Positions 3,208 to 14,575 of a stretch of 53,527 nucleotides of DNA are shown here, one piece after another. Source of the DNA: Gammaproteobacteria bacterium. Its GTDB lineage: Bacteria > Pseudomonadota > Gammaproteobacteria > Acidiferrobacterales > Sulfurifustaceae. The DNA lies in contig JACQFZ010000069.1 of the NCBI GenBank assembly GCA_016199745.1, positions 1 to 53,527 of the forward strand. The letters run 5' to 3'. The notes below the pieces were generated by a model. That model had not been told where the DNA came from. It worked only from the letters and a program-made list of their open reading frames with translations, and searched no databases. The position numbers were made by a program, and so were the translations under genes. How positions within the stretch are numbered: the first letter of the stretch is position 1; each line of letters starts with the position of its first letter.

Positions 3208-4373
3208 GCCGCGGCCTCTACGCCCTACTCGTCGCTCAGTTCATAACGGCATTCGCCGACAACGCGATTCTCTTTGCTGCTATCGCCATGGTGCTGCATG
3301 CCAGCAACGCCGCGCCATGGTACGTACCGGCGCTACAGAGCGCGTTTCTGGTCGCCTTCGTGGTGCTGGCACCCTGGGTCGGACCGTTCGCCGACAGCCG
3401 GCCGAAAGCGTGGGTGCTCATGATCGGGAATGCGTTGAAAGGCGCCGGCGCGTTGTTCATGTTGCTCGGCCTCGAACCGATCTTCGCCTACGCCTTCGTC
3501 GGTATCGGTGCCGCCGTTTATGGTCCGGCGAAATACGGCATATTGCCGGAAATGTTGCCGCACGATCGGCTGGTACAGGCCAATAGCCTGATCGAAGGTT
3601 CGACCATCGTCGCTATTATCGCCGGTACCGTCGTCGGCGCGCGCGTGGCCGATCGGTCGATTACGGCGGCGCTGTTGCTGGTGGTCACGTGCTATGGCCT
3701 GTCGCTGGCGACGACCTTGCTGATTCCGAAGATCGCACCGCAACATCGCGCTGACCAACCCGGCGTTGGCCACTTCATCGACATGATGCGCTCGCTGTTC
3801 GTCAGTAGCCGCGCGCGTTTCGCTATGCTCGGTACTGGTCTGTTCTGGGCGGCAGCGGCGGTACTGCGCTTGTTGCTGGTGGCATGGGCGCCGGTCGTGT
3901 TGCTGACGCATAACACCGCCGACATCGCCAACCTTACGCTCGCCCTTGCCATCGGAATCGTCATCGGCGCGACGCTCGTACCCAAGCTCATCCCGATCGA
4001 GCGCCTGCGGCGCGCGCGGCTCGCGGCTTATGCAATGGGCGTGTTCATCTTAGTATTGAGTCAGGTCGACGCCATTTGGCCGGCGCGGGCGGTGCTGGTA
4101 TTAGTGGGTGTTACCGGTGGATTATTCATGGTGCCAATCAATGCGGCGTTACAGGAGATCGGTCACAAAACGATCGGCAGCGGCGGCGCGGTCGCGCTGC
4201 AAAACTTTTTCGAAAATATCGCGATGCTGATAACGGTGGGTCTTTACACGCTCGCTGCCGCCAATGGCGCATCGCCCGTGCGATCGATTGTTGCGGTAGG
4301 GATTCTGGTACTCGTCGCCACGTTGTTGGTCTCATGGCGACTCCCACCGGATCCGAACAAGTCCGCCAGCTAA
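3204..4373 (+). CDS. lplT: Lysophospholipid transporter (MFS)
   Basis: 389 aa with about 12 hydrophobic segments and a major facilitator layout. The start FADNAILFAAIAMV and the stretch YGPAKYGILPEMLPHDRLVQAN are typical of LplT, which flips lysophospholipids from the outer to the inner leaflet for Aas to re-acylate. It starts with GTG, overlapping the aas stop by 4 nt (GTGA). The pairing with aas makes the assignment firm. A small hairpin CCGACT/AGTCGG at 4460-4477 follows the gene. Confidence 0.92.
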   Translation: MSRGLYALLVAQFITAFADNAILFAAIAMVLHASNAAPWYVPALQSAFLVAFVVLAPWVGPFADSRPKAWVLMIGNALKGAGALFMLLGLEPIFAYAFVGIGAAVYGPAKYGILPEMLPHDRLVQANSLIEGSTIVAIIAGTVVGARVADRSITAALLLVVTCYGLSLATTLLIPKIAPQHRADQPGVGHFIDMMRSLFVSSRARFAMLGTGLFWAAAAVLRLLLVAWAPVVLLTHNTADIANLTLALAIGIVIGATLVPKLIPIERLRRARLAAYAMGVFILVLSQVDAIWPARAVLVLVGVTGGLFMVPINAALQEIGHKTIGSGGAVALQNFFENIAMLITVGLYTLAAANGASPVRSIVAVGILVLVATLLVSWRLPPDPNKSAS

Positions 4374-9491: not shown

Positions 9492-9656
9492 CGTGGCGCC
9501 CTTAACTGTCATACGAACATATATAGCTCCCGGCTCTCTGGACTGCACTATCTTTCAGAGGCTGACTGGCCACCGTTGTCCGCTATGCAGCGGAGCAGTG
9601 AAAATGGGTTTACATCGAAACATCTCGCAATACAGCGATCTGAAGCAAATGCCGTA

Positions 9657-9950
9657 TCAATACGCTACCCCAGAACCGTTGCGTCGACCCTGAATGTGTT
9701 TCGCATGATGCGTTACGTCCTGGAACAGTGATTTGATAGCAAGAGTGACGTTGGCAATGGTATGGGTAACCTGAGAATACGGTGCAGACGTTTGGATGCG
9801 CTCTATTGCCACCGAAAAGCGCCACCGGAACGTGGATAGATCGGTCTCGAATCCGTGACAGGACGCAATCATCGCTATACCGGCAGCTTCTGCCTGCAGA
9901 TACATTGGCAGCTTGCGACCGAGTCCAATTAGTAATCGTTCCCGCAACAA
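9657..9950 (-). pseudogene. Relic of a C39 peptidase domain (CvaB/RaxB-type exporter)
   Basis: 97 aa. The stretch KLPMYLQAEAAGIAMIASCHG, broken here after LQAEAAG, followed by FETDLSTFRWRFS, matches the start of the C39 peptidase domain of bacteriocin-exporting ABC transporters. In that family the run is LQtEaaECGLACLAMIAxYHG, then TDLxxLRxRF. The segment carrying the catalytic Cys is deleted, the downstream half no longer matches, and the transmembrane and ATPase parts are absent. This is therefore a decayed fragment. It lies between the hut operon and the small accessory genes and may mark a lost bacteriocin or double-glycine peptide export locus. The family match is from memory of the motif. 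Confidence 0.6.
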
Positions 9951-9982
9951 ATGCGGTTCCCCAATATAGAAGTCCGACCGAC

Positions 9983-10237
9983 CTACTTACGTTGATTAAG
10001 TACTTGACGAACCATTATCTCTCTGTCCTTTCGATTCTTCTTTCGTTGCTTTCTGTCGAAACTCCAATGGGTAAGCCAGATATGGATCGAGACCAATAAA
10101 GGATATGAACAGGCTCGCATGTTAGATCGATTCGCCGAATCAACTAAAGTGAAAGCGATAATTTCTATGATCAAGATTGCTACCACAAAAATTAGTATGC
10201 TGCGTCGCGAAAAGAGAACCTGTTTGGATATCTTCAT
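9983..10237 (-). CDS. Small predicted membrane protein
   Basis: 84 aa from the ATG at 10237, which has a GGAG about 10 bp upstream; an ATG at 10261 would add 8 residues. A strong membrane segment (SILIFVVAILIIEIIAFTLV) lies near residues 14-33 and a weaker one (YPLLVSIHIWLTHW) near 45-58. The tail is very basic. It starts 34 bp after the tandem csrA gene on the same strand and so is probably cotranscribed with it. I do not recognise the family. The spacing, SD and membrane helix support a real gene. Confidence 0.45.
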   Translation of the reverse strand: MKISKQVLFSRRSILIFVVAILIIEIIAFTLVDSANRSNMRACSYPLLVSIHIWLTHWSFDRKQRKKNRKDREIMVRQVLNQRK

Positions 10238-10271
10238 ATCGAAAGCTCTCCGCACCTTCATCTGCTATTGC

Positions 10272-10604
10272 TCAATTAAAAAACCGATCAGCGTTGTCGT
10301 CACAAAGATTCAGGCGGATTTCATTCCATGAAATAAGCTTTTGAATTTCTTCCCGGTAAACCGGCGTATTTATGGCGACGTCGACGCCAAGACGAGTGTG
10401 ACCGCCCTTGCTCACCAGTACCGTGACCGATGTGTCGTCATCAATGTTCAAGGTCTGACCCACACCGCTGGAGAAAATGAATTGGAAGGTATTGTCTAGA
10501 TCGATGCACATACGAACGTGATCGCTTTCAACGTTAAGTACCGTGATAACAAGGCGGTTGCTAATGGTCAGGGTTTGGCCGACACGCCTCGTATAAATAA
10601 GCAT
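10272..10604 (-). CDS. Tandem (single-chain) CsrA-like RNA-binding protein
   Basis: 110 aa from the ATG at 10604, which has AAGGA 9 bp upstream. Residues 1-41 align to CsrA from its start (MLIYTRRVGQTLTI) up to strand 4. Residues 42-91 are a second CsrA copy that ends in the standard VYREEIQKLI. Copy 1 keeps Thr5-Arg6-Arg7 on strand 1 but has Phe in place of the strand-5 Val42 and Arg44. Copy 2 has lost the Arg pair (SSG in place of TRR) but keeps Val82 and Arg84. In the CsrA dimer each RNA site is built from strand 1 of one chain and strand 5 of the other. This chain thus keeps one complete composite site and has lost the second. It lies in a minus-strand cluster with an XRE regulator and an ordinary CsrA. 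Confidence 0.85.
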   Translation of the reverse strand: MLIYTRRVGQTLTISNRLVITVLNVESDHVRMCIDLDNTFQFIFSSGVGQTLNIDDDTSVTVLVSKGGHTRLGVDVAINTPVYREEIQKLISWNEIRLNLCDDNADRFFN

Positions 10605-10714
10605 CGTGGTCGTTCCTTCTTTGAACTTTCCGTGGCAGATTGCCGGATTTGCGGCCGTGGGGCTCACGCTCATCGCCTAAGCGGGTGGCACGGCGCTACA
10701 GTACCTTTAGATGT

Positions 10715-11065
10715 TTACGTGTATTCCGCCGATTGAGTGGAGTTATCAGGACTTATCAAGTCGGCGGCTCCTATACCGAATGCGTCGGCAAGCCGCTCAA
10801 GGTTGTCCAGGCTAATGTTGCACCGTCCGCGTTCCACCAAGCTGATGTAGGTTCGATGCAGTCCGCTCTCGTCTGCGACCTGCCCTTGCGACCACTTGCG
10901 AACTTTGCGTAGTAGCCGCAGTCGATCGGCGAGGTGGCGCCGTAGGGGATAGCTCTTGGGCTTTGGCTTAACTTGAGTGTATTTCCCTGTCTCCTGTTTC
11001 GATACCGGAGTGCTTCCCTGTTGCTCTGACAACGGAATATTGGCTGTCGATTTCTTTGGCGACAT
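10715..11065 (-). CDS. XRE-family transcriptional regulator
   Basis: 116 aa from the ATG at 11065 (AAGGA 8 bp upstream); an upstream in-frame ATG at 11149 gives an unlikely extension. The C-terminal 70 residues are a Cro/C1-type helix-turn-helix: LADRLRLLRKVRKWSQGQVA, then ESGLHRTYISLVERGR and ISLDNLERLADAFGI. The N-terminal ~45 residues are polar and basic and probably disordered. It lies between the two csrA genes on the same strand. The mRNA region before it (11066-11460) is rich in GGA triplets, so CsrA control of this gene is possible. Confidence 0.85.
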   Translation of the reverse strand: MSPKKSTANIPLSEQQGSTPVSKQETGKYTQVKPKPKSYPLRRHLADRLRLLRKVRKWSQGQVADESGLHRTYISLVERGRCNISLDNLERLADAFGIGAADLISPDNSTQSAEYT

Positions 11066-11461
11066 TTGATGGATCCTTTGCGGTATGTCGTATATCGGTG
11101 AAATCACCGGTGAATACAATGCGAAACACGCTCGCTCTGCAAGAGTCACTAAGCCGCTCCGCTCCTTCTACTTGGTTACGTTCCTCTTTCTTCGTCTTTC
11201 GTTCGTTCTTGATTGGGTCGTATGCTGCGGTGATCTTCTTATTGTTCACGGTCCAAACGCTCCCTTGAGTCGCCTCCAGCCTAAGCCGCGCAGCACACGA
11301 CCGAATCAAGCTCTACTGATATCGCAAATTAAAGTGTGGTCTGGTCCACTCGAATGGATGCTCCGCATAACTAATGCCGTCGATCCACTGCATGACGTCG
11401 CCTCCTCCCTAACAAAGTTTCAGCCTGTCTACACACAACTTGGCTAAACTACTTGTTCTTC
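11066..11461 (-). other. GGA-rich leader between csrA and the XRE gene
   Basis: A stretch of 396 nt between two co-directional genes holds no clear protein except a 26-codon ORF. Read on the minus strand it has twelve GGA triplets, about twice the number expected by chance, including GGGAGGAGG before the small ORF and AAGGAGCGGAGCGG nearer the XRE gene. GGA in loops is the CsrA recognition core. It could be a CsrA-controlled leader or a sponge RNA; there is no proof of expression. Confidence 0.35.
11313..11393 (-). CDS. Possible 26-aa small ORF / leader peptide
   Basis: An ATG at 11393 is preceded 7 bp upstream by GGGAGGAGG, one of the strongest Shine-Dalgarno sequences in the window. The ORF runs 26 codons to a TAG: it begins MQWIDGISYAEHPFEW and ends NLRYQ. 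It has no recognisable family. The strong ribosome site makes it worth listing, but the GGAGG run could equally serve CsrA binding. Confidence 0.35.
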   Translation of the reverse strand: MQWIDGISYAEHPFEWTRPHFNLRYQ

Positions 11462-11680
11462 TCAGACTGTTTTTCCGAACGGTTCAGAACTCGCTCGGTT
11501 TTCTATACCGGCTTTCCTCCGCTTTTTTATACTCTCGTAAATCTCCTCGCGGTGAACCGGAATGTCCCTCGGCGCAGCAACCCCAATCCGCACGTGATTG
11601 CCATTGATCTCAAGAACCGCAACCCTGACATCATCACCAATGGTAACGCCCTCACCAACCCGCCTGGTCAAGATCAACAC
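11462..11680 (-). CDS. csrA: CsrA-family RNA-binding regulator
   Basis: 72 aa from the GTG at 11680, placed 10 bp after GGAGG and giving the canonical N-terminus (M)[17 protein letters not shown]. All key residues are present: Leu4, Arg6 and Arg7 on strand 1, and Val42, His43 and Arg44 in [12 protein letters not shown]. The C-terminal tail is 15-20 residues longer than E. coli CsrA. It binds GGA motifs in mRNA leaders and changes translation or stability. Its location among phage-like regulators suggests an accessory paralogue, not the housekeeping csrA usually found next to alaS. Confidence 0.9.
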
Positions 11681-11846
11681 GTTTATGTTCCCTCCGTTGG
11701 TATCGATGGCTAAACAAAACTCATCTCGGCCTACAGCGATGCCGCCACGTTTCCTATCCATATGTGTTACTGTTTTAGATAACTCTTATTCCGTATATAA
11801 CCTATATATATCTGTATTTCGCACATACTAGGCGGCATTTAGAATA

Positions 11847-12731
11847 ATGGCAAGCACCCCTGTTCTACTGAAAAAAAGCCACCCCACGTTCATCGAAAGG
11901 ATGGAGGTCTTGGCCGAGCTAGTGGGCAACGTGAACAAGATCGCTACGAAGCTGGAAGACGTTATTTCAAAATCCGGGCTTCGGCATTATTTCACCGGCG
12001 GAGAACCGACCCGACCCGCCCTTATTGCGCTCGCCAATGTTGCCGGCTTAAACATCGAATGGTTAGCCGCCGGAACGGGGCCCATGCGACCGATTCCTAC
12101 AGAGTCGCGCCATCTCGTCGTCGATACTTTCTCGCGTTACTGTCGTAGTAGAGGAATTACCGCGGCAAACGGATTAGTCGAGTTCTGTCTGGCATATAAC
12201 GATGGCGTTGTTACTTCCGCTCCCGGGATCAGTAAGCTCGCTCTCTGCGAGTTAAGTGCATGGGTTGAGGAGTACCAAAAGCCGTCTTCCGATGCGGGAG
12301 AGTATCCGCGGATACCGACATATGATCTGGATGCGGTCGACGATCAATCGTTTACCACTGAAGGTCGAGCCATTGCATTACGAGCAGCCACCCTATCCTT
12401 CCGGCGTAACTTACTGCTCGAATGGAAACTCGATATTGAGCAACTGGCAATATTTATCGTGCGATCAGACGAGTTGTTTCGATCAGTACGAGCGGGCGAC
12501 TGGCTATTATGCGATTGCCGCCGAGAACATGCGAATCGCGCCGGCATCTTTGTATTAAATGATGAAGGAAATTACGTTATCCGACGGGTCCAATTCTTGG
12601 AGCATGCACGCGTTCGCTTAACCCAGGAAGATCCGGACGGTGAAGAAATAATGGAGGAGCGCAAACTTAAGGAAGTTAAGCTTATCGGAAGAGTAATAAT
12701 TTACACGCGCCGATTACGCCGCTCCTTTTAA
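11847..12731 (+). CDS. CI/LexA-like repressor with degenerate S24 domain
   Basis: 294 aa. Residues ~15-80 form a CI-type helix-turn-helix (KIATKLEDVI, GGEPTRPALIALANVAGLNIEWLAAGTG, written here in parts of the run). A middle linker of about 90 residues is rich in hydrophobic helices. Residues ~180-290 fit an S24 peptidase-like fold: LLLEWKLDIEQLAIFIVRSD, AGDWLLCD, AGIFVL, YVIRRV, IGRVI. The catalytic GDSM Ser is replaced (VRSDEL, with Glu where Ser should be) and the base Lys of the K-R/V strand is Arg. The domain should dimerise but not self-cleave, so it would not respond to RecA in the usual way. It is divergent from the csrA cluster, with an AT-rich shared upstream region (11681-11846). 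Confidence 0.75.
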   Translation: MASTPVLLKKSHPTFIERMEVLAELVGNVNKIATKLEDVISKSGLRHYFTGGEPTRPALIALANVAGLNIEWLAAGTGPMRPIPTESRHLVVDTFSRYCRSRGITAANGLVEFCLAYNDGVVTSAPGISKLALCELSAWVEEYQKPSSDAGEYPRIPTYDLDAVDDQSFTTEGRAIALRAATLSFRRNLLLEWKLDIEQLAIFIVRSDELFRSVRAGDWLLCDCRREHANRAGIFVLNDEGNYVIRRVQFLEHARVRLTQEDPDGEEIMEERKLKEVKLIGRVIIYTRRLRRSF

Positions 12732-12812
12732 CAGCGGCATCTTTTACTCTTTTCATCCAATCGGAAAAACAATCTTCAGAATACGCACGATAGTGCGATA
12801 GGGACGATGCAC

Positions 12813-14045
12813 ATGGCGACAGAAGAACAAATTCGGAATCGACGTTCTGGCGATCCGCAAACTCCCAACCCACCACGCGGGTGGCAACGTATTTGCGATA
12901 AATATCATCGTAAAAAGACGAACGAGATGGCGCCCGAAGTATACCCATCAAAAAATCGACGCGCCGACGGTTCACAAACCACTGTCATACCCGTCAACCA
13001 ATGGCAGCGGCTGTTCGATCGCTTCCGTTTATGTCCCGATACCGAAGTCGAACAGAACGTAATTCGTGTTCTCTTTACCGCTTTCGTTCTTATCTACGGT
13101 ATTGCTGTTGCGCTGCATTACCGCACGACGGTACCGACGTTATTTCTTACCATCCTCTCTAGTTATATCGGGTTCGCAATCGCGATATTCGTTTGGATTT
13201 ATTTGTCGCCGACGAGGTCGCTCATTCGTCGCGTATGCCACACACTGGGCGACCGGGCGATGGTCACTGGGGTCTTACTCCTGTACGGCGGTTGGATAAG
13301 CCCCATTTATATCGTGTACCTATGGGTAGATATCGGTAACGGCGCGCGTTATGGAAGTCTTCGTTACCTCCTCTTTTCAACATTCTGTTCAGCAACCGGC
13401 TTTGGATGCGTCGTGTTTCTCAGCGACTACTGGCGATCACTGGAACCACTTAGCGTTGGCCTATGGCTCGGAATCGTCGCTCTCCCCATTTTTGCAAGAC
13501 GTTTCTATCAACGCATGAACGATGCAAATCAACGACTACGTGAACTGGCGACCCATGATCCGCTAACTGGGCTACCTAATAGGCCGTTTTTGTACGAAAG
13601 GCTTCGCGAAACAATCGCAATGTCGGAACGACATAAAAGACGGTTTTTAGTGATGTTCATCGACCTCGACAACTTTAAAAAAATCAATGATGGTAAGGGA
13701 CATGAAGCGGGCGATAACGCCCTGCGTGAAGTCGCCAGCGCAATGCGACAATCGATACGCCAGTCAGATGTCGCCGCAAGAGTAGGCGGAGATGAGTTCG
13801 TCGTGCTGTTGCACGATCTGAAAAATGAAAAGATCCAACATCTCGCCGAACACATTCGCGAATCGGTGCGCCTCTATACCAAAGATCATTTATCGATGAG
13901 CGTTGGAATTGCGACCTATCCAGAATGCGGAAACGATCCGGAAACGCTAATACGACATGCTGACAACACGATGTATGCAGCAAAAGCAGGAGGAAAAGGG
14001 CGGCATGTTGTCTGTTTGAATATTAACGGCGGCGCCAACCAATAG
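12813..14045 (+). CDS. Diguanylate cyclase with RpfC-like membrane input domain
   Basis: 410 aa from the ATG at 12813 (AGGG 9 bp upstream); an ATG two codons earlier is too close to that site. After a polar N-terminus of ~65 residues there are five or so membrane segments. The stretch YLWVDIGNGARYGSLRYL, then CVVFLSDYW and SLEPLSVGLWLG, resembles the membrane sensor part of RpfC-type kinases. The C-terminal 170 residues are a GGDEF domain with HDPLTGLPNR, DLDNFKKIND and RVGGDEF. An inhibitory I-site RxxD (RQSD) lies five residues before GGDEF. It should make c-di-GMP at the inner membrane under product inhibition. The signal is unknown; DSF-type fatty acids would be one guess. Confidence 0.88.
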   Translation: MATEEQIRNRRSGDPQTPNPPRGWQRICDKYHRKKTNEMAPEVYPSKNRRADGSQTTVIPVNQWQRLFDRFRLCPDTEVEQNVIRVLFTAFVLIYGIAVALHYRTTVPTLFLTILSSYIGFAIAIFVWIYLSPTRSLIRRVCHTLGDRAMVTGVLLLYGGWISPIYIVYLWVDIGNGARYGSLRYLLFSTFCSATGFGCVVFLSDYWRSLEPLSVGLWLGIVALPIFARRFYQRMNDANQRLRELATHDPLTGLPNRPFLYERLRETIAMSERHKRRFLVMFIDLDNFKKINDGKGHEAGDNALREVASAMRQSIRQSDVAARVGGDEFVVLLHDLKNEKIQHLAEHIRESVRLYTKDHLSMSVGIATYPECGNDPETLIRHADNTMYAAKAGGKGRHVVCLNINGGANQ

Positions 14046-14144
14046 GCGACTGATTAAGACAACATGCTCCGTCAGTACGAACAGGCGACCGAATATTTAT
14101 AATAGTGCGAGAGGAACAGCATACAATATCTGGCGGCGGGAAAG

Positions 14145-14177
14145 TGCCGATGCGATCACACGGGACCGTGATCGGCA
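14145..14177 (+). terminator. Hairpin after the diguanylate cyclase
   Basis: TGCCGAT (14145-14151) pairs with ATCGGCA (14171-14177), with an inner GATCAC/GTGATC alternative, followed by TTTG. It is a plausible terminator for the cyclase mRNA. It lies 20 bp before the tRNA fragment. Confidence 0.5.
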
Positions 14178-14196
14178 TTTGACCCACATTGGATTT

Positions 14197-14242
14197 TGGT
14201 GCCGGTGACCGGAATCGAACCGATGACCTACTGATTACGAAT
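14197..14242 (-). repeat. tRNA-Thr 3' fragment: distal attachment site of an island
   Basis: These 46 nt repeat, in the same orientation, the anticodon loop to CCA end of the intact tRNA-Thr at 23438-23483. There is one mismatch (A at 14214 against G at 23455). The spacing between the copies is 9241 bp. This is what site-specific integration into the 3' end of a tRNA gene leaves behind: intact tRNA at one end and a partial copy at the other. Confidence 0.85.
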
Positions 14243-14341
14243 TTTCTGTCGAAAATATCGACTTCTCTTTCACTTTCAAAAAAATAGTCTGCTTTTTGGC
14301 AATCTTTACCACCTGCAGTTAGTGCTCATGCGCGATTCAAT

Positions 14342-14575
14342 TCAGCCAGTTGTTTGAGACGCTTCCAGCTTATGGTACTGCACGAGCGTAGCCACCTGCG
14401 CGACGACATCGACATCCTGAGTTGCTCGAATCAGTTCGGCGCGCGCCGTGGTAAGTAGTAAGCCGGTTGCACAGCCCCCGACAAACACTAACGAATCGCG
14501 CAGATCACCCAGTGCGTCCGCCACCAACACCAAAATCCCCAGGTTCGGGTCGTCTTTGGAGCCGACCTCTTTCAT
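14342..14575 (-). pseudogene. Truncated AbiEii-like nucleotidyltransferase
   Basis: 77 aa. The stretch FVGGCATGLLLTTARAELIR followed by ATQDVD matches the GG-x-A and DxD active-site region at the start of AbiEii/AbiGii-type nucleotidyltransferases. It continues VVAQVATLVQYHKLEA as in the family. It then ends after five unrelated residues (SQTTG), about 100 bp from the island's left attachment site. Full-length relatives are about 200 aa or longer, so two thirds of the gene are missing. It overlaps the upstream HTH gene by 4 nt, the usual layout of an antitoxin-toxin-like pair. The break may stem from the integration or an end deletion. Confidence 0.65.

Follow-up and report, generated by a model that had tools for sequence, protein, structure and literature searches.

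A CsrA protein of the CsrA/RsmA/RsmE type (Pfam PF02599) is a domain-swapped homodimer with two RNA sites, and a locus at which two such units share one open reading frame raises the question of how many of those sites survive in the fused chain and whether the chain is maintained. We addressed this question for a 110-codon frame in the window, by which we mean the whole stretch of 53,527 nucleotides that was analysed (contig JACQFZ010000069.1, from a gammaproteobacterial genome of the family Sulfurifustaceae).

Two CsrA domains in one reading frame

The frame occupies the minus strand from 10604 to 10272, and its translation (MLIYTRRVGQ...VYREEIQKLISW..., 110 aa) holds two CsrA domains; a plus-strand reading of the same interval was discarded, as it meets two stops in that frame. 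Translation would begin at an ATG at 10604, 5′ of which lies the Shine-Dalgarno-like sequence GAAGGA, and promoter and terminator patterns around the gene showed no excess over shuffled sequences. PF02599 matched the protein in two stretches at 62.9 bits (cut-off 27, E = 2.7e-17), which places it in the family, and in a scan of the whole genome its halves scored separately at 32.0 and 32.1 bits (E = 5.6e-7 and 5.4e-7). As each half alone exceeds the cut-off, the two-domain match is not a chance one, which bears out a preliminary description of the sequence that had recognised two CsrA copies in one 110-residue chain. That description had also put a normal csrA gene 0.9 kb away, and one is present on the minus strand 0.86 kb upstream. 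The features of the locus are as follows:

10272..10604, minus strand: tandem CsrA gene, 110 aa plus stop; two PF02599 stretches, GAAGGA upstream
10497..10604, minus strand: copy 1, strands b1-b4, residues 1-36; PF02599 match over 1-36, model strands 2-7, 11-14, 18-25 and 29-36
10584..10592, minus strand: T5 R6 R7 of copy 1, putative b1 half of the retained RNA site; invariant in three intact tandem copies
10464..10487, minus strand: predicted merged strand, residues 40-47 (FQFIFSSG), taken as b5 of copy 1 plus b1 of copy 2; one strand over 40-47 in both models, alignment register
10380..10454, minus strand: copy 2, strands b2-b4, residues 51-75; PF02599 matches and model
10350..10361, minus strand: V82 Y83 R84 E85, putative b5 half of the retained RNA site, R84 being the Arg44 equivalent; from sequence, model confidence being low here
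10715..11065, minus strand: gene for an XRE-type HTH regulator, lying upstream of the tandem gene (with a start at 11149 the frame is longer); HTH_31/HTH_3, homologues beside the C55 and C67 tandem genes
11462..11680, minus strand: canonical csrA gene starting with GTG and encoding TRR and VHREE; the frame 11462-11761 scores 78.2 bits with PF02599

Known CsrA chains have 61-75 residues, whereas this one has 110 and two copies. The frame of the neighbouring csrA gene scores above both NCBIfam equivalog cut-offs for csrA (NF002469, 90.6 bits; TIGR00202, 81.5 bits), while the tandem protein falls short of each (65.3 of 73 bits and 64.0 of 70.1 bits, respectively). Two of the tandem proteins (P0001 and P0003) also match phage CsrA-like families in two stretches each, the best being phrog_9500 (E = 4.4e-20 and 8.9e-19).

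Tandem genes, their neighbours and selection in the same genome

The genome that contains the window has 72 contigs, the window being contig C69, and gave 17 PF02599 matches at E ≤ 1, a threshold at which 7 of 14 control genomes also have matches (three over the cut-off). It encodes seven single csrA genes of canonical type (on C13, C4, C2, C57, C55, C69 and C67) and one insert-type CsrA gene (on C22); in addition, matches are double on C69, C55 and C67 and split on C2. The C55 and C67 tandem proteins are 88% and 37% identical to that of C69, respectively; in the C2 copy the first and second parts are read in different frames, and we regard this copy as frame-broken. All seven single csrA genes keep Arg44 and six keep TRR, the exception being the C67 gene, which has TRN.

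A single-domain csrA gene adjoins all four tandem copies, and an XRE-type HTH gene lies beside three of them. The order on both C69 and C55 is csrA, XRE-type HTH, tandem csrA, all on one strand, compared with tandem csrA, csrA, XRE HTH on C67 and broken tandem, csrA, LuxR-type HTH on C2. ANTAR-domain response regulators occur near the tandem loci of C67 and C2 (L039 4788-5552 and L040 8262-8933). When 12 genomes of the same genus or family were searched and their match tables compared by eye, an HTH gene was found just upstream of a same-strand CsrA-family gene in all seven relatives that match the HTH protein of the cassette; three of the seven have a second HTH match with no CsrA neighbour. 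A CsrA-family match lies within 500 bases of 4 of 8 HTH matches in the window's genome, 4 of 14 in G020 and 1 of 4 in G024. Because HTH matches without a CsrA neighbour occur, the linkage is frequent rather than strict. In the relatives, a variant CsrA gene stands in the place that the tandem gene occupies on C69 and C55. In G020, which belongs to the same order, CsrA matches are numerous but weak and partial (contigs C14, C22, C24, C33, C36, C73, C87, C96 and C99), and an XRE HTH match lies within 500 bases of four.

The cassette in the window has a GC content of 47-52%, against near 60% in its flanks. The stretch with this composition (9500-14500) carries csrA, the XRE HTH gene, tandem csrA, a protein matching Peptidase_S24 and a GGDEF protein, and looks like an acquired regulatory patch; to its left are genes that, recognised by eye, we take to resemble hut genes.

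The C69 and C55 loci align at 84% DNA identity over 708 columns; the alignment begins within the HTH gene, at window position 10959, and runs to 10254, just beyond the tandem gene. Two further segments align, one of 122 bases (84%) in the space separating csrA from the HTH gene, the other of 113 bases (74%) within csrA. Their tandem genes differ by 19 synonymous changes over 75.7 sites and 13 nonsynonymous changes over 254.3 sites (p = 3e-6, Fisher test on rounded site numbers), giving a dN of 0.053, a dS of 0.306 and a dN/dS of 0.17 (copy 1, 0.18; copy 2, 0.13; tail, 0.33, with few changes). The fused gene has therefore been kept by purifying selection since the duplication, an estimate that comes from one paralogue pair and does not tell which copy matters. 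The accompanying HTH pair (dN/dS 0.33, dS 0.57) and single csrA pair (dN/dS 0.29, dS 1.43) have diverged to different extents, such that the three cassette genes have not evolved as one block. These values bear on whether the tandem gene is a decaying relic, in which duplicated csrA genes were fused by an accidental deletion and now drift. Such decay would fit the broken C2 copy, the absence of Arg44 from copy 2 of C55 and the AT-rich surroundings of the window copy; however, three copies are intact and open, the joint and TRR persist at 37% identity, and the low dN/dS runs counter to drift, so that we regard a relic as very improbable.

The joint, the predicted fold and the RNA-site residues

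Arg31 of copy 1 and Gly9 of copy 2 are separated by 18 residues in C69 and by 17 in C67, with the joint at the same place despite the 37% identity of the two proteins. With full CsrA units, this stretch would have to hold strand 5, the helix and the following strand 1. Residues 40-44 correspond in register both to positions 40-44 of copy 1 and to positions 0-4 of copy 2, and AlphaFold placed a single strand over residues 40-47 in two predictions of the same chain, one based on only the three tandem sequences (mean pLDDT 67.5) and the other on these plus eleven single CsrAs (14 sequences, mean pLDDT 81.2, block means of 89-94 over residues 1-70). The 14-sequence model links strands 11-14 and 18-25 by three residues and ends in a predicted helix over 84-102, the end of which has low confidence. 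Strand 5 of copy 2 formed in neither model (pLDDT below 50 for residues 80-84 with three sequences; block mean of 66 over residues 81-90 with 14). An alignment for a deeper copy 1 (A3) was set aside, as its canonical fragments fell on copy 2 except for the first two residues. Foldseek returned no PDB chain matching either model at E ≤ 0.001, from single-chain libraries in which a CsrA dimer could not appear, and the top Foldseek and VIA rows were mostly unrelated b-rich chains. In a comparison of single chains only, whole CsrA chains superposed on the models at 3.9-6.0 Å over 51-57 residues (one at 10.6 Å), and the truncated CsrA chain 5z38_E fitted the 14-sequence model at 0.7 Å over 36 columns.

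The two sheets of RsmA are described as b5A-b2B-b3B-b4B-b1A and b5B-b2A-b3A-b4A-b1B (PMC3791407), and each RNA surface of CsrA as the parallel b1 and b5 of opposing monomers (PMC7652899). With copy 1 as A and copy 2 as B, b5A and b1B, which together make one RNA surface of the dimer, would here be merged into one strand. This strand is flanked in sequence by b4A and b2B, which would also be its expected neighbours in space, and the remaining seam, b1A beside b5B, would be the sole RNA surface left. Since the strands predicted to be merged at the joint form one RNA site in the CsrA dimer, the fusion itself would remove that site and leave the other. We therefore propose that two csrA units became joined when the first lost its end (strand 5, helix and stop) and the second its strand 1, that the merged strand serves as b5 of copy 1 and as b1 of copy 2, and that the chain folds as a closed CsrA-like sandwich of nine strands rather than ten. 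The RNA site kept would pair the TRR strand 1 of copy 1 with the VYRE strand 5 of copy 2, the opposite site having given way to the merged strand.

The preliminary description had seen selection in the complementary pattern of residue loss. We read that pattern differently: both lost elements adjoin at the joint, a single deletion removes both, and complementarity alone is thus no evidence of selection. The losses may represent one fusion event instead of separate selected steps, and selection is visible instead in the low dN/dS and in the TRR kept in copy 1 of the three intact genes.

The chain could also regain a second site by pairing. The subunits of a CsrA dimer exchange strands 1 and 5 (PMC3791407), and the models leave strand 5 of copy 2 free, as would suit two tandem chains that exchange strands to form a dimer with two RNA sites; but a chain holding both copies can presumably satisfy the exchange within itself, and we think such a bivalent dimer improbable.

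The residues on which the two-site question turns are those first reported, namely T5 R6 R7, F42 and F44 of copy 1 at the strand-5 positions of Val42 and Arg44, S45 S46 G47 where copy 2 would have TRR, and V82 Y83 R84 E85. The putative retained site of C69 comprises L2 I3 Y4 T5 R6 R7 of copy 1 and, from copy 2, R71 (R31 in CsrA), V76 A77 I78 (A36 P37 K38), T80 (V40), V82 (V42), Y83 and R84 (R44). The lost site reads F, I, F, S, S, G in strand 1 and has F40, F42 and F44 in strand 5. In both C69 and C67 the retained site keeps Arg6, Arg7, Arg31 and Arg44 and lacks Leu4 and the Ala-Pro-Lys loop, positions 36-38 being Val-Ala-Ile or Val-Ala-Leu in place of the canonical Ala-Pro-Lys; position 40 is Thr in C69 and C55. 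Position 4, at which Leu contributes to CsrA binding (PMC7652899), is Tyr in the tandem protein, and in two of the seven single csrA genes of this genome it is Ile or Phe. By sequence, the chain thus lacks the residues for two equal RNA sites (b1 and b5, L4, R44): one site has TRR and R84 with Tyr for L4, and the other has FQFIF/SSG.

The loss pattern largely held in the other tandem copies. TRR is present in copy 1 of all three intact genes, none of which has Arg at position 44 of copy 1 or a full TRR in copy 2 (SSG, SSR and TRG). The part that did not hold throughout is Arg44 of copy 2, which is kept in three of four copies, C55 having Gln in its place (VYQEE). In the broken C2 copy, TRR is found in the first frame, and IGS together with VYR in the second.

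Several of these observations count against a simple one-site reading: Tyr4, the changed Ala-Pro-Lys loop, Thr40, the absence of strand 5 of copy 2 from the models, and the Gln of C55 at the essential Arg44, although C55 belongs to the pair with low dN/dS. The same observations, together with the constraint on C55 alongside C69, would also fit if the tandem protein were a maintained regulator without CsrA-type GGA binding, acting through another surface (a protein partner) or with a different RNA specificity. Against this, copy 1 of each of the three intact genes has an invariant TRR, and three of the four copies keep Val-Tyr-Arg at low identity, features that are hard to explain without RNA contacts; we consider loss of GGA binding unlikely while giving it real weight. 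For RsmN, the mutation R62A is reported to lower binding more than 1,000-fold while some in vivo functions are kept (PMC3791407), such that phenotype and site residues need not agree.

Occurrence elsewhere and a possible one-site CsrA

A profile of the three tandem proteins, applied at E ≤ 1e-16 to evenly drawn, overlapping sets of 369 class and 398 phylum genomes, found only the window's own genome, at a threshold that a tandem protein with a full linker could score worse than and escape. Among 57 genomes of the order, the tandem architecture was likewise confined to this one; 52 of the 57 match at E ≤ 1e-9, and the matches outside its three tandem genes begin at profile residue 23 or later (copy 2), like single CsrA. 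A collection of genome contigs gave 67 pattern matches and two confirmed relatives, both covering residues 42-91 only and neither a tandem, and viral contigs gave six pattern matches, none of them confirmed. None of 47 matching phage records reached 80% cover. Two of 151 matching plasmid records did so, both from Legionella geestiana and annotated with separate csrA-like genes; the one of the two that was inspected is not a fusion. In 40 relatives searched with PF02599 at E ≤ 1e-3, no frame had two separately listed matches. Five rows flagged for in-frame neighbours were set aside, one (G002:C57) being a single insert-type CsrA and the other four frames too short (69-76 aa), as was G038:C165, whose two overlapping matches lie in different frames. 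No natural tandem CsrA was found among the matches listed from open-licence papers, and heterodimers of CsrA paralogues had, according to PMC7366521, not been shown as of 2020. The tandem was seen in one species only, which also counts against the one-site reading. An RsmY model found nothing over its cut-off in the window's genome, with weak matches as in 10 of 14 control genomes.

On the Legionella geestiana plasmid NZ_CP038272.1, a divergent CsrA-like gene overlaps canonical csrA by one base (L086 3001-3684), just upstream of trb conjugation genes and followed by a csrA remnant; this offers a parallel to the fused pair in the form of two genes.

Rewiring of the CsrA fold has a described counterpart in RsmN (RsmF) of Pseudomonas aeruginosa (PDB 4KJI), a topologically rearranged CsrA that keeps its RNA sites, indicating that the fold tolerates such change (PMC3791407). 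RsmN is a homodimer with two sites, and its rewiring comes from a 16-residue helix inserted between strands 2 and 3, whereas the tandem protein lacks this insert, differs from the RsmN/RsmF type (a 16-residue strand 2-3 helix and no C-terminal helix) and would be rewired by fusion. Insert-type CsrA proteins with an insert at the RsmN place, between strands 2 and 3, are encoded downstream of an XRE HTH gene at two loci that were read (G000:C22:74500-80500, L041 3009-3200, in the window's genome; G002:C57:7000-15000, L045 near 3650-3850), and match lengths of 192-201 bases for 47-50 profile positions suggest the same insert in G001, G004, G007, G009 and G010. These could be RsmN-like rewired CsrAs outside Pseudomonas.

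Each half of the tandem protein has the strand pattern of CsrA/RsmA/RsmE; copy 1 shares the TRR of strand 1 with this type and copy 2 the VxRE of strand 5, and the Pfam match is well above the cut-off. The protein differs in having both halves in one chain, in the predicted collapse into one strand of three elements (the helix and strand 5 from copy 1, strand 1 from copy 2), in carrying residues for one site instead of two and in scoring below both equivalog cut-offs. We consider the tandem protein real, recurrent within one genome and structurally well motivated, and its function putative. That it is a single-chain CsrA pseudo-dimer of nine strands, with one RNA site and one-site binding, we judge an even call.

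Such a protein would bind one GGA-type site at a time and would not bridge two. According to the account of Mercante 2009 in PMC7652899, laboratory CsrA dimers carrying R44A in one or both polypeptides showed that glgC is fully repressed only when both sites function, and one known CsrA target has a single site (PMC7652899). The R44A dimers resemble the proposed tandem in pairing one functional with one dead RNA site, but are two-chain laboratory constructs, whereas the tandem is one natural chain and a putative RNA binder. Given these targets, a one-site protein could blunt CsrA action, as a competitor weakening dual-site repression by the full CsrA of the neighbouring gene, or could serve as a regulator of single-site RNAs. 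The fuller proposal, of a natural and selected monovalent CsrA, nine-stranded, that antagonises RNA bridging beside full CsrA and has multiplied as csrA/HTH/tandem-csrA cassettes in one genome, is possible but somewhat doubtful.

CsrA has been described as a two-site dimer, and the need for both sites has been asked with laboratory heterodimers. A natural single-chain one-site CsrA, if true, would make mixed dimers unnecessary for testing that need, and would offer a clear example of a homodimer becoming an asymmetric single chain through the merging of two strands. The linkage of the tandem gene to csrA and an HTH gene suggests, in addition, a regulatory cassette that may carry its own antagonist.
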